DNA of 32,187 nucleotides from Gemmatimonadaceae bacterium (GTDB lineage Bacteria > Gemmatimonadota > Gemmatimonadetes > Gemmatimonadales > Gemmatimonadaceae): positions 4,736 to 36,922 of the forward strand of contig JACDDT010000020.1 of NCBI GenBank assembly GCA_013816855.1, written 5' to 3'. Under the pieces are notes generated by a model that was not told the origin of the DNA, searched no databases, and worked only from the letters and a program-made list of their open reading frames with translations. The position numbers and the translations under genes are program-made. Positions 19,818 through 28,653 of this stretch are shown here, in pieces (the first letter of the stretch is position 1; each line of letters begins with the position of its first letter).

Positions 19818-21368
19818 GTGACGATGAGAGACAAGCTCGATCTTCTCTCCCGGCGCCGCGCAGAAGCGGAGCAGGGAGGAGGAGAGGCGCGCGTGAAAGC
19901 GCAACATGCGAAGGGAAAGCTTTCCGCGCGCGAGCGGCTCGACCTGCTTCTCGATGAGGGCACGTTCGTCGAGCTCGACCGATTCGTCGTCCACAGGTCC
20001 ACCGATTTCGGACTCGACGAGCAGAAGATTTACGGCGACGGCGTCGTCACCGGGCATGGACGCGTCGACGGGCGGCTGGTTTACGTCTTCTCACAGGACT
20101 TCACCGTCTTCGGGGGATCCCTCTCGGAAACCTTCGCGGAAAAGATTTGCAAGGTGATGGACCTGGCCGTTCGCAACGGCGCACCGGTCGTCGGCCTCAA
20201 TGACTCCGGTGGCGCGCGCATTCAGGAAGGCGTGGTCTCACTGGGAGGCTACGCCGAGATTTTTCTCCGCAACACGCTTGCATCCGGAGTAGTTCCGCAG
20301 ATCTCGGCGATCCTCGGGCCGTGCGCCGGCGGGGCGGTTTACTCGCCGGCGATCACCGACTTCACGTACATGGTGCGCGGATCGTCCTACATGTTCGTCA
20401 CCGGTCCCAACGTCGTGAAGACAGTCACTCACGAAGACGTGACGATGGAAGCTCTCGGCGGAGCGGACACGCACGCGGCGACGTCCGGCGTAGCGCACTT
20501 CGCCTGCGATTCCGAACCGCAGTGCATTCAGGAGATTCGCGATCTCTTCCGCTTTATCCCGTCGAACAATCTCGACACGCCGCCGCGCGGCAGCGCGACG
20601 GACCCGCGCGACCGCCGGGACGAAGCACTGCTCGACATAGTGCCGGACAACGCGAACAAGCCGTACGACATGCACGAGGTGATCAAGCGCATCGTCGACG
20701 ATGGCGAGTATTACGAAGTCCATCGCGACTACGCGCAGAATATCATCTGCGGATTCGCGCACATCGGCGGATTCAGCGTGGGCATTGTAGCCAATCAGCC
20801 CGCGGTGCTGGCGGGCGTTCTCGACATCAACGCATCTACGAAGGCGGCGCGCTTCATCAGGTTTTGCGATGCGTTCAACATTCCGATTGTGACGTTTGAA
20901 GACGTCCCCGGATTTCTACCCGGCGTAGCGCAGGAGCACGGCGGCATCATCAAGCACGGCGCGAAGCTTCTCTACGCTTACTGCGAGGCGACGGTGCCGA
21001 AGCTGACCGTCATCACCCGCAAGGCGTACGGCGGCGCCTACGACGTCATGAGCTCGAAGCACATTCGAGGCGACTTCAACGTTGCCTGGCCGACGGCCGA
21101 GATCGCGGTGATGGGGCCGAAAGGGGCGGTGGAGATTCTGTTCAAGAAAGAGATCGCGGAAAGCGAGGATCCGCAAAAAGCGACGGATGCGAAGATCGAA
21201 GAGTATCGCGAGAAATTTGCTCACCCGTATATCGCCGCGGCGCGCGGCTACCTCGACGACATCATCGATCCGCGCGATACCCGGCCGATGCTGATCGACG
21301 CGCTTGAGACGCTGCAGAATAAGAGGGACAGGAACCCGGCGAAGAAGCACGGAAATATTCCACTGTGA
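19818..21368 (+). CDS. Acyl-CoA carboxylase carboxyltransferase (beta) subunit, PccB-like
   Basis: A 516-aa carboxyltransferase of the propionyl-/methylcrotonyl-/acetyl-CoA carboxylase beta family. It moves CO2 from carboxybiotin to an acyl-CoA, most likely propionyl-CoA (judged from overall resemblance only). Two crotonase-like halves are visible: the first with [13 protein letters not shown] and [18 protein letters not shown], the second with [29 protein letters not shown] and [16 protein letters not shown]. The GTG start (19818) has GGAGG 7 nt upstream. The biotin carboxylase and carrier subunits lie 1.8 kb further on the same strand. The interval holds the inverted-repeat cassette and two genes on the other strand. 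Confidence 0.93.
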
Positions 21369-21382
21369 CTTCAACTACCACC

Positions 21383-21427
21383 TAAGAACTACCGGCCGGG
21401 GGCCGTGGGCGGAGCGGCTGGGGGCTT
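21383..21427 (+). repeat. Left inverted repeat of the four-helix cassette
   Basis: A 45-bp GC-rich repeat starting taagaactaccggcc and ending in gggggctt. It is the partner of 21884-21928 in opposite orientation, and its core is shared with both ends of 26452-26749. Confidence 0.88.
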
Positions 21428-21487
21428 CGGGCGAAACGCGGAAGGATTCGATGCACGGTGGACCGGCGCGCCGTTGAGCTTTACTGG

Positions 21488-21922
21488 ATGCAGGATTTCA
21501 AGAAGCTCTTCGTCTGGCAGAAAGCACACGCGCTTTCGTTAGGTGTTCACCGCGCGACGAGCAGAATGCGTCGCTCGGAATTATTCTCCCTCCGCAGCCA
21601 AACGTTCCGCGCTGCGATGTCAATCTCGGCGAACATTGCGGAAGGACGCCGCCAAGCGACGGACAAGCAGTTCGGGCGGTTCTTGGGCTACGCGCTCAAT
21701 TCTGCGTCCGAGCTAGAGCATCACCTGATAGTTGCGCGCGATCTAGGCGCCATCGGATCGAATGAATTCAATGCTCTTGCCGGCGAAACGATTCGCGTGC
21801 GCAAGATGCTATTCGCACTAATCCGACGTCTGTCCTCAGCGGCACAATCCCCGAACATCGATCCCAACGTTCAAGCGGGCACCAAGCCCCCGGCCGGGCC
21901 GCCCATAGCCCCCGGCCGGTAG
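21488..21922 (+). CDS. Four-helix bundle protein (S23 / 23S rRNA intervening-sequence protein family)
   Basis: A 144-aa protein of the S23/IVP four-helix-bundle family, known from open frames inside 23S rRNA intervening sequences and related in fold to the Avd proteins of diversity-generating retroelements. MQDFKKLFVWQKAHALSLGV is the family's helix 1. SISANIAEGRRQ (45-56) and LNSASELEHHLIVARDLG are its two hallmark segments. No catalytic residues are known for the family, and a nucleic-acid or scaffold role is presumed. It starts at ATG 21488; a GTG at 21458 is less likely. Residues 133-144 (KPPAGPPIAPGR) and the TAG are encoded by the right inverted repeat, so gene and repeat evolved together. 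It is not inside an rRNA gene here. Confidence 0.9.
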   Translation: MQDFKKLFVWQKAHALSLGVHRATSRMRRSELFSLRSQTFRAAMSISANIAEGRRQATDKQFGRFLGYALNSASELEHHLIVARDLGAIGSNEFNALAGETIRVRKMLFALIRRLSSAAQSPNIDPNVQAGTKPPAGPPIAPGR

Positions 21923-21928
21923 TTCTTA
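21884..21928 (-). repeat. Right inverted repeat of the four-helix cassette
   Basis: The reverse complement of the left repeat with about five mismatches. It encodes the last 12 residues and stop of the four-helix-bundle gene on the plus strand and ends 14 nt from the stop of convergent msrA. Confidence 0.88.
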
Positions 21929-21942
21929 TTTCATCGTTTCCC

Positions 21943-22635
21943 TTATTTCGCCGCAGCCTCACTGTACAGCGCCGGCAAAATCCGCTTGAGGTGCGTCAGT
22001 TTCGGCGCATCGTTGATCACGATGTACGGCTGGTACGGATGCAGCGCGAGGTAATTCTGATGGTACGCCTCGGCCAATGAGTAGTTGCTCAGCTTCGACA
22101 CCTCGGTCACAATCGGCTTCCTGAATGTCTTCGCGTTCGTCAGCTGCTTGATGTACGCCGCGGCGAGCTGCTTCTGCTGATCGTTCACGTAGAAAACGGC
22201 GGAACGATACTGGCTTCCGACATCGGGGCCCTGACGATTGAGCTCCGTCGGGTCGTGCGACGCGAAGAAAACCTGAAGCAGCTGCGCGTATGTCACCTGC
22301 GACGGATCGTAGACGACTCGCACCGCTTCCGCATGGCCGGTCGTACCTGTCGACACTTCCTCGTAGCTCGGGTTCACCGGAGTCCCGCCGGCGTATCCCG
22401 AAGTCACTTCCATCACGCCCTTTACATGCTTGAACACGGCGTCGATTCCCCAGAAGCATCCACCGGCGAACACCGCGGTCTCTTTCCCCTTCGTCGGGGA
22501 GAGCTTTGCGTCCACCTCGGCGCGGGGCAGCACGGCGCTGAGATCGCTCGTGTGAGTGGTCGTCTTCGAAACTGCAAACGTTCCGCCCACTGCGGCGGCG
22601 GCGATGGTGAGACCGCGAGCGATGGATCCAATCAT
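21943..22635 (-). CDS. msrA: Peptide-methionine (S)-S-oxide reductase MsrA, exported or membrane-anchored
   Basis: Repairs oxidised methionine (S-sulfoxide) in proteins. The 230-aa protein has the active-site GGCFWG with Cys60, followed by the family segments SGYAGGTPVNPSYEEVSTGTTGHAEAV and FFASHDPTELNRQGPDVGSQYRS. The first 25 residues (RGLTIAAAAVGGTFAVS) form a hydrophobic signal or anchor, so it probably acts in the periplasm. No other cysteine is seen, so recycling would need an external thiol partner instead of an internal resolving Cys. A clean AGGAG sits 6 nt before the ATG. It is convergent with the four-helix cassette. Confidence 0.95.
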   Translation of the reverse strand: MIGSIARGLTIAAAAVGGTFAVSKTTTHTSDLSAVLPRAEVDAKLSPTKGKETAVFAGGCFWGIDAVFKHVKGVMEVTSGYAGGTPVNPSYEEVSTGTTGHAEAVRVVYDPSQVTYAQLLQVFFASHDPTELNRQGPDVGSQYRSAVFYVNDQQKQLAAAYIKQLTNAKTFRKPIVTEVSKLSNYSLAEAYHQNYLALHPYQPYIVINDAPKLTHLKRILPALYSEAAAK

Positions 22636-26451: not shown

Positions 26452-26749
26452 GAACTACAAACTCAAGACTACCGGCCGGGGGCTTTGGACTTAGCCGGCT
26501 CGGGGCTGCGGGCCTTTGCCGAGCGATCGCCTGGTCATCCGCGCTTCAGTCAGAAGAACTTGATTTCCATCGAGCGTAAGTCGCATTGGTACGCGCAGAT
26601 GACAAAACCAAAGTCGCGCATGCCAACGCCCCTATAGGTGACCGTTTCCAGAGGAATTCTCCTCCAAAATCGACGGTTTGAAGGGAGGCCCGAAGCCCCC
26701 AGCCGGCTCGGCCGACGGCCCCCGGCCGGTAGTCTTGAGTTGCAGTTCT
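26452..26749 (-). mobile_element. Miniature inverted-repeat element related to the four-helix cassette
   Basis: A 298-bp unit whose ends are inverted copies of each other (ctcaagactaccggccgggg at both ends). The similarity reaches outward (gaactacaaactc at left, reverse complement gaactgcaactc at right) and inward to agccggct. The core ctaccggccgggggc is the same as in the cassette at 21383-21928. Oriented on the minus strand it reads: repeat, ggggcttcgggc-type inner edge, about 70 nt, an ATG followed by RDF, a short body, then a tail ending APGR-stop. This matches the cassette with its middle removed. It lies 7 nt after the biotin carrier gene. Confidence 0.72.
26469..26621 (-). pseudogene. 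Remnant of a four-helix-bundle gene inside the miniature element
   Basis: On the minus strand an ATG at 26621 begins MRDFGFV, similar to the family start MxDFxKL. It stands about 70 nt inside the repeat, against 60 nt for the intact gene. The frame stops early. In another frame the sequence ends EPAKSKAPGR followed by TAG at 26471-26469, corresponding to the APGR-stop end of the intact gene. The central helices are missing. The remnant reading rests on position and these short matches, not on a long alignment. Confidence 0.42.
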
Positions 26750-27753: not shown

Positions 27754-28653
27754 ATGGCTCAACCCAATCTGGATCAGCTTCTCGAAGCCGGTGTCCACTT
27801 CGGACACCAGACGCGTCGTTGGAACCCGAAAATGCGGCGTTTCATTTTCGCCGAGCGCAACGGGATCCACATCATCGATCTGCAGAAGACGCTTCGCCAG
27901 CTCGAGCTGGCGCAGAAGCTGGCGAGGGAAGTAATTCTCCGCGGCGACAACGTTCTCTTCGTCTGCACCAAGCGGCAGCTCGTCAACATCGTGAAGGACG
28001 AAGCGGAGCGCTGCGGCGCGATGTACGTCACGGAGCGGTGGCTTGGCGGTCTCCTCACCAACTTCCAGACGGTGAAGAAGCAGGTTCGTAAGCTCAAGGA
28101 TCTCGAGGCGGGCAGTGAAGCCGGCGGTGATTTCGAGAACTACACCAAGAAAGAGCAGCTCATGATGTCGCGTCAGCGCGACAAGCTCTCCAAGAACCTT
28201 TCGGGCATCAAGAACCTCACCCGTTTGCCGGGCCTGATGTTCGTCGTGGATTCCAAGAAGGAGCGCATCGCCGTCGCTGAAGCCAACAAGCTCAAGATTC
28301 CTCTCATCGCACTCGTCGATACGAATGCGGATCCCGATCTCATCACTGTTCCGATCGCCGGTAACGACGACGCCATCCGCTCCGTCGAGCTGATGACGAA
28401 GTCCATCGCCGACGCGATCATCGAAGCGCGCCGCGAAGCTCCGGTTCGCGAGGAAGTGGAAGAGACGGAGAGCTACACGTACAGCTCCGACAGGGGCGCA
28501 GAACCGGAAGGCGACGCCGAACGTAAGCGGAAGCGCCGTCCGCGAAGACGCCGAGCTAAACCGGAGGCTATCGCTGCCCGGCTCAAGGTCGGCGGCGAAG
28601 GAGAGGTGGAAGGCGAAGCAGAGCCTGCCGCCGAGCCCGAGCAGGAAGGTTAA
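27754..28653 (+). CDS. rpsB: 30S ribosomal protein S2 with charged C-terminal extension
   Basis: A 299-aa protein. Residues 1-228 or so are normal S2: [61 protein letters not shown] low-complexity tail of about 70 residues follows, first acidic (EEVEETE), then strongly basic ([16 protein letters not shown]), then acidic again ([19 protein letters not shown]). The tail is probably disordered; its use is unknown. A hairpin separates the gene from tsf. Confidence 0.97.

Follow-up and report, generated by a model that had tools for sequence, protein, structure and literature searches.

A putative mobile DNA element composed of an S23/IVP gene and convergent seven-base repeat arrays, in Gemmatimonadaceae and other bacteria

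Introduction

Among described systems, the rRNA intervening sequences (IVSs) that bear an S23 open reading frame (ORF), such as that of Coxiella burnetii, come closest to the locus reported here, in that both place an S23/IVP gene between terminal inverted repeats. As described in excerpts of PMC4990558, the Coxiella IVS consists of a 28-bp inverted-repeat stem, the S23 ORF, and tandem heptamers just ahead of that ORF; the ORF is judged there to be decaying and probably unexpressed, and older proposals of a mobile origin are cited. IVP ORFs within rRNA insertions of CPR bacteria are likewise described in a portion of PMC11270868, and, according to part of PMC10053308, the family PF05635 resembles Avd, a protein of diversity-generating retroelements.

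A second group of relevant sequences consists of orphan heptamers, 7-bp tandem repeats that are dispersed and mostly intergenic and that have been described as GGGAATC in Xanthomonas, GGGGA(C/T)T in Nostoc, and TAACTGA in Beggiatoaceae (excerpts of PMC4692102 and PMC4679880). In two Xanthomonas genomes, the former paper counts 186 and 183 GGGAATC repeats with 70 and 75 convergent pairs, an orientation like that of the arms described below, and in its excerpted text finds genomic stability to be increased near the repeats and a link to mobile elements to be absent; for the TAACTGA repeats, the excerpts of the latter suspect horizontal transfer, with no evident mechanism. Unlike the arrays considered here, these heptamers are not tied to S23 genes or to a mobile element in the excerpted portions of either paper (PMC4692102 and PMC4679880). 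Our literature search, which covered open-licence PMC papers, returned none that connects heptamer arrays with S23 genes located outside rRNA.

Here, we analyze an S23 unit contained in a 32,187-nucleotide stretch of DNA (the window) from the genome of a Gemmatimonadaceae bacterium (2.47 Mb, 94.9% complete; genome G000, of which the window is contig C104). From rRNA IVSs, this unit differs in lying outside an rRNA gene, in having many dispersed copies, longer arms, and miniatures, and in having arms without sign of RNA selection. A further comparison is with REPIN/RAYT systems, in which dispersed palindromic miniatures accompany one gene, which may act on them in trans; this RAYT gene is a Y1 transposase. 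The window element has palindromic miniatures of this kind, whereas no Y1 transposase was detected in its genome.

Results

A first-pass annotation had placed an S23/IVP-type gene between inverted repeats at this locus, with a 45-bp right repeat (21884-21928) encoding the last 12 residues and the stop, and had remarked on an IVS-like layout among ordinary protein genes. Each of these points is borne out, and the features of the window are as follows (basis in parentheses).

21383..21928, plus strand: whole element, comprising arm, S23 gene, and arm (inverted-repeat comparison and profile match)
21383..21432, plus strand: left arm, degenerate 7-bp repeats (inverted-repeat comparison, lag identity)
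21488..21922, plus strand: S23/23S_rRNA_IVP four-helix-bundle gene, 144 codons plus stop (ORF, profiles, structure model)
21879..21928, minus strand: right arm, an inverted copy that encodes the S23 C terminus and stop (inverted-repeat comparison, lag identity)
26463..26738, no strand assigned: 276-bp miniature of this arm family, lacking S23 (no S23 motif in any of the six reading frames)

The two arms, 50 nt each, are 86% complementary and separated by 446 nt (their outer 45 bp are 89% identical), and the gene, which begins with ATG at 21488, ends with a TAG at 21920-21922, within the right arm. Judging from an AACTAC-like start at 21373, comparable to those of the miniatures, the true outer ends of the element may lie ~10 bp farther out. 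Both sides display a seven-base period: in the left side (21373-21452), identity is 0.49 at lag 7 versus 0.27 to 0.36 at other lags from 4 to 11, and in the right arm, it is 0.41 versus 0.25 to 0.37 at other lags. The genes on either side converge on the element: a carboxyl transferase gene stops at 21368, to its left, and a peptide methionine sulfoxide reductase gene stops at 21943, to its right. The window has no match to any Rfam family, which places the unit outside any rRNA gene. The unit therefore has the terminal inverted repeats that frame an IVS and has protein genes as neighbors in place of a 16S or 23S rRNA gene; signature oligonucleotides for 16S and 23S were found in none of 82 loci, a scan that carries little weight because it had no positive control. 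In genome_contigs, the loci closest to the element belong to Gemmatimonadaceae/Gemmatimonadetes MAGs. A ribosomal protein S2 gene occupies window positions 27754-28653, ~1 kb past the miniature.

The encoded protein matches PF05635 (E value of 1.8e-29; 102.5 bits against a curated cutoff of 33.8) and TIGR02436 (E value of 3.8e-30; 104.3 bits against a cutoff of 24). Its structure model (pLDDT of 95.4) has four helices and aligns as a four-helix bundle with 2gsc_B (TM-score of 0.85, rmsd of 1.1), 2GSC being XCC0516; 2RLD is also matched. The model has the same fold as Avd, with matches weaker than that to 2GSC (4DWL, TM-score of 0.78; 8UB7, 0.79; by query length, with E values of 0.05 to 0.08) and at an identity of ~9%. 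The S23 protein is under purifying selection, with dN/dS of 0.03 to 0.13 in seven pairs whose dS, 1.0 to 3.1, is near saturation. Net charge is +11 in the window protein and has a median of +6 among S23 domains of the genus; since the median of a wider set is only +1, charge provides no general argument.

The repeat is not confined to one place. Searches of its own genome with the 546-bp element returned at least 39 matches (40 of 50 candidates scored), a count that takes in the match of the element to itself, arms at other places, and fragments of further S23 genes. Eleven arm-bearing loci were inspected: seven, among them the one at 26463-26738 in the window, have both arms with no room for S23 (125 to 276 bp), and at four, a single arm was seen. 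The seven two-arm miniatures of the window family thus constitute dispersed short palindromic units, as in REPIN/RAYT systems, and no target-site duplication was clear by eye at seven miniatures. The same genome holds seven S23 genes, all framed by inverted repeats (34 to 86 bp), and these seven units differ from one another, their arms included.

Among 19 genomes of the genus, some of them incomplete, S23 copy number ranges from 0 to 8, and PF05635 is present in 17. No S23 gene was detected in G001 or G009; the latter (68% complete) nonetheless carries window-family arms, possibly as orphan miniatures. The 71 S23 matches in the genus comprise 58 that are armed, 4 that are armless with both flanks present (two of which are gene fragments), and 9 that are too near a contig end for arms to be judged. 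Inverted repeats therefore surround 58 of the 62 genes with both flanks, in comparison to 0 of 185 random intervals at the same loci (57 of the 58 armed elements were called by script, and the window element, whose S23 match overlaps the right arm, was counted by hand). These elements have sizes of 375 to 837 bp (median of 609), arms of 24 to 136 (median of 68), and arm identities of 76 to 97%.

Two copy pairs delimit the unit. In G002, the copies share one stretch of 429 bp at 90% and another of 189 bp at 82%, the gene of the second copy being incomplete, and in G011, they match at 78% over 633 bp; similarity in both pairs stops within ~30 bp of the element ends, and the flanks are unrelated.

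Orthologous sites of seven G011 and G014 units were sought among eight genomes of the genus and compared. The L077 unit is absent from G014, where 9 bp replace 758; 124 and 41 of these lie outside the arms, and because these outside bases are missing too, the gap is possibly a deletion in G014. An imperfect direct repeat of ~15 bp flanks this unit, with its left copy ~90 bp outside the arm and a single copy in G014. The unit on G014:C51 corresponds to a short palindrome in G011 that keeps both outer ends. That on G011:C3 is common to G014 (internally deleted there), has a partial match at a contig end in G010, and corresponds to ~200 to 220 bp in place of 828 in G013 and G012; that on G011:C11 is partly deleted in G014, shared with G004, and entered by a contig end in G016, and in G010, ~240 bp stand where the unit has 697. 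At the site of the G011:C12:570368 unit, a gap of 2 bp (G003) or 48 bp (G012) separates the neighboring genes, other inverted-repeat sequences (by eye) lie there in G010 and G013, G016 matches up to its contig end, and G014 has one side only. For the G011:C5:596419 unit, the right flank alone was found in G014, and a G014 match to the G011:C12:645229 unit was sought and not found; the G011:C5:601122 unit is common to G011 and G014:C43, and a site shared by G018 and G015 holds different units (S23 DNA 66% alike, arms poorly alike). Some units are common to more than one species and decaying. Units thus come and go, although some site differences are deletions.

Within the convergent gene pair that borders the L091 unit, G010 and G013 have different inverted-repeat sequences (L211 and L212, by eye), and this gene pair is possibly a hot spot. 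Six-base (GTTGCA)n repeats adjoin the right unit end in L063 and L205, in numbers that differ between G014 and G011.

Nor do all relatives carry the gene at the locus of the window unit. None of 29 relatives' loci has S23, and 26 of these include the 3' end of the carboxylase gene (one with only 53 bp past it), 4 of them with a 7-periodic array there. A clean empty site for the window unit was not obtained, in that the left neighbor gene occurs without S23 and the right neighbor lies elsewhere in most relatives.

The makeup of the arms and their spread over phyla add to what the first-pass annotation had noticed: both in the genus and in other phyla, the arms are, unexpectedly, arrays of degenerate 7-bp repeats. 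In the genus, 53 left arms (3,982 nt) have a lag-7 identity of 0.442 versus 0.275 in shuffles (z of 21), and lag 7 is the best of lags 4 to 13 in 40 of the 53 arms versus 4 of 53 flank controls. The identity rises to 0.76 (z of 24) in 23 arms from outside Gemmatimonadota, two of them from viral contigs, and 19 arms from the G074 class (Gammaproteobacteria) reach 0.81 at lag 7 and 0.83 at lag 14, with 0.25 to 0.29 at the other lags from 2 to 15. Inverted repeats were detected at 29 of 30 loci in Gemmatimonadota (whose genomes largely coincide with the genus set) and at 26 of 44 complete loci outside it (one viral), leaving 18 of the 44 without a detected one, against 4 of 328 controls.

A 7-periodic array lies near S23 at 33 of 43 loci (viral loci omitted) versus 11 of 189 controls, and arrays at lags 5, 6, 8, and 9 lie near S23 at 0, 0, 1, and 1 of the 43, respectively. 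Array density is 0.58 per kb near S23 and 0.057 per kb elsewhere in the 82 loci, a tenfold difference. In a sample from the G074 class chosen regardless of arms (S23 in 60 of 369 genomes; 30 loci, 24 complete), inverted repeats occur at 17 of the complete loci, and arrays flank one or both sides at 22 and both sides at 14, compared with 1 of 18 control windows; the corresponding counts in another set of 30 loci, which largely repeats loci of the phyla-wide set, are 20, 26, and 12, with 1 of 23 in the control.

On mobile replicons, 10 of 18 plasmid records with S23 were taken, all cyanobacterial; 9 of the 10 have an array of lag-7 identity of at least 0.86 on one side or both, and 5 have arrays on both sides (two being one duplicated segment), in a set that has no control. 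Phages had no S23 match at an E value of 0.01, and viral contigs contributed two loci. In one of these (L204, 4927-5903), perfect heptamer arms of 36 bp enclose an S23 gene, and further 7-periodic arrays are present. In two cyanobacterial plasmids (L247, 2501-2860; L248, 2495-2863), S23 with heptamer arrays on both sides lies between cas6 and cas4 of a type I-D CRISPR operon, the same position in both, which may reflect an insertion hot spot or co-option; the excerpted text of PMC10910872 lists the 23S rRNA IVP among CRISPR-linked domains.

Mismatches between arms bear on the level at which their symmetry is kept. Among 548 arm mismatches in the 58 genus elements, 131 are G-U (in the coding-strand RNA) and 145 are A-C (P = 0.43), and outside Gemmatimonadota, the numbers are 24 and 21. 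A selected RNA stem should clearly favor G-U, so the lack of an excess leads us to reject an RNA hairpin as what keeps the arms alike and suggests that their symmetry is kept at the DNA level. Neither reverse transcriptase (PF00078) nor Y1 transposase (PF01797) was detected in the element's own genome or in G011 (98% complete), each being present in 3 of the 19 genus genomes. Movement by an own-genome enzyme of either type is thus not supported, and the genome shows neither the reverse transcriptase gene of a diversity-generating retroelement nor the Y1 (HUH) transposase gene of a REPIN/RAYT system. The first-pass annotation had suggested a free-living relative spreading as DNA or RNA without a recognized transposase. 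Dispersed copies, matching ends, and unrelated flanks, from which we infer movement, agree with this suggestion; its RNA branch is disfavored, and its lack of a transposase holds for the Y1 family, the one searched.

Each of the three genomes tested has, scattered through its sequence, further copies of the heptamer found at its S23 gene. Scoring overlapping matches within an array separately, tandem GGGAATC has 29 matches in G451, whose S23 gene is broken and has GGGAATC arrays in its arms, 2 in G000, and 0 in 12 other genomes, and tandem GTGAATA has 186 in G333, 82 in G331 (adjoining S23 in both), and 0 in 12 others. A convergent partner lies near 10 of 21 dispersed arrays from G451, G331, G333, and G000, and a divergent partner lies near none of the 21. 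In three arm sets, G outnumbers C on the upstream arm in 38 of 58, 20 of 28, and 18 of 19 cases (the reverse in 17, 5, and 1). Distances between proteins and between heptamers are correlated (Mantel r of 0.31, P = 0.0005; 45 elements), which joint inheritance alone could produce; three Bacteroidales/Paludibacteraceae proteins that are 4 to 21% apart share one heptamer. G-quadruplex formation was ruled out as a common property of the repeats, many heptamers being without G runs.

Discussion

The unit of arms and S23 recurs in the genus and in other phyla, gene-less two-arm miniatures exist, and some orthologous sites are without the unit. We favor the reading, to which we assign a probability of roughly 0.55, that the window feature is one instance of a small, widespread mobile DNA element, made up of an S23/IVP gene and two convergent 7-bp arrays, whose S23 protein reads the arms and promotes copying without a recognized transposase (among Y1 enzymes, those searched). 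Under such a scheme, S23, with its fold of 2GSC and Avd, would bind the arm heptamers as an oligomer, bring the two arms together, and promote the copying of arm-bounded DNA to new sites by replication or repair enzymes of the host. Mobilization of the miniatures would occur in trans, and DNA-level copying between arms would maintain their likeness within a copy. Counting against this reading are the lack of a clear target-site duplication, the 18 of 44 complete loci outside Gemmatimonadota without a detected inverted repeat, the possible deletion behind the L077 gap in G014, the units that are common to more than one species and decaying, the broken S23 gene of G451, and the presence of 2 GGGAATC matches in G000. 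The increased stability near the Xanthomonas repeats (excerpts of PMC4692102), the decaying ORF of Coxiella (excerpts of PMC4990558), the near-zero charge of S23 in the wider set, and the chance that joint inheritance accounts for the protein-heptamer correlation weigh on the same side.

The main rival is that S23 is a nucleic-acid-binding host protein, a regulator whose inverted heptamer arrays serve as binding sites or bidirectional terminators and spread by slippage and recombination. Conservation of the protein, the placement of the window unit between convergent gene ends, the commonness of gene-less arrays, and the two armed cyanobacterial S23 genes inside CRISPR I-D operons would all suit such a regulator. 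We nevertheless regard it as unlikely, because whole units, gene included, are duplicated within genomes amid unrelated flanks, because a single genome has seven different units with different arms, and because the 19 genus genomes (some incomplete) carry anywhere from 0 to 8 copies of S23.

Somewhat more doubtful still is that S23 is cargo in a MITE-like unit moved by an unrelated transposase. Miniatures do keep both ends, and the enzyme search covered only Y1 transposases and reverse transcriptases; against this, S23 is the sole gene found inside units from many phyla whose arms are unrelated in sequence, purifying selection acts on it, target duplication is not clear, and arm and protein divergence correlate. 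It is very improbable that the unit is an RNA element like an rRNA IVS, with a transcript that would form a hairpin through its arms, undergo RNase III cleavage, and move by reverse transcription in trans: the Coxiella IVS, which has the same protein, the same arrangement of inverted repeats, cleavage by RNase III, and heptamers ahead of S23 (excerpts of PMC4990558), and the Avd-like fold speak for it, but the arm mismatches lack a G-U excess in the genus and elsewhere, and reverse transcriptase went undetected in the element's own genome and in 16 of the 19 genus genomes. That plain microsatellites lie near S23 by chance is scarcely credible: heptamer repeats are indeed known from several genomes with S23 unmentioned (excerpts of PMC4679880 and PMC4692102), but the arrays keep to lag 7, are concentrated near S23 relative to controls and to the rest of the loci, and occur at 22 of 24 complete loci in the sample chosen regardless of arms.

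Extending the mobile-element reading beyond the window feature, we tentatively propose, at somewhat less than even odds, that S23 elements form a separate class of mobile DNA in many phyla, without a recognized transposase, in which an oligomer reads its cognate array, pairs convergent arrays, and directs host enzymes. The orphan heptamers of Xanthomonas, Nostoc, and Beggiatoaceae would derive from such elements, and the S23-bearing rRNA IVSs would be copies that landed in rRNA genes. If true, this would join three loose ends, namely, the role of the large S23/IVP family, the origin of S23-bearing rRNA IVSs, and the 7-nt repeats strewn through several bacterial genomes, for which the excerpted papers offer no mechanism; the arms of an S23 gene would predict which heptamer is dispersed in a genome and which DNA the protein binds. 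The recurrence of this package in many bacterial groups suggests a type of mobile DNA that has escaped notice and that may account for such repeats.
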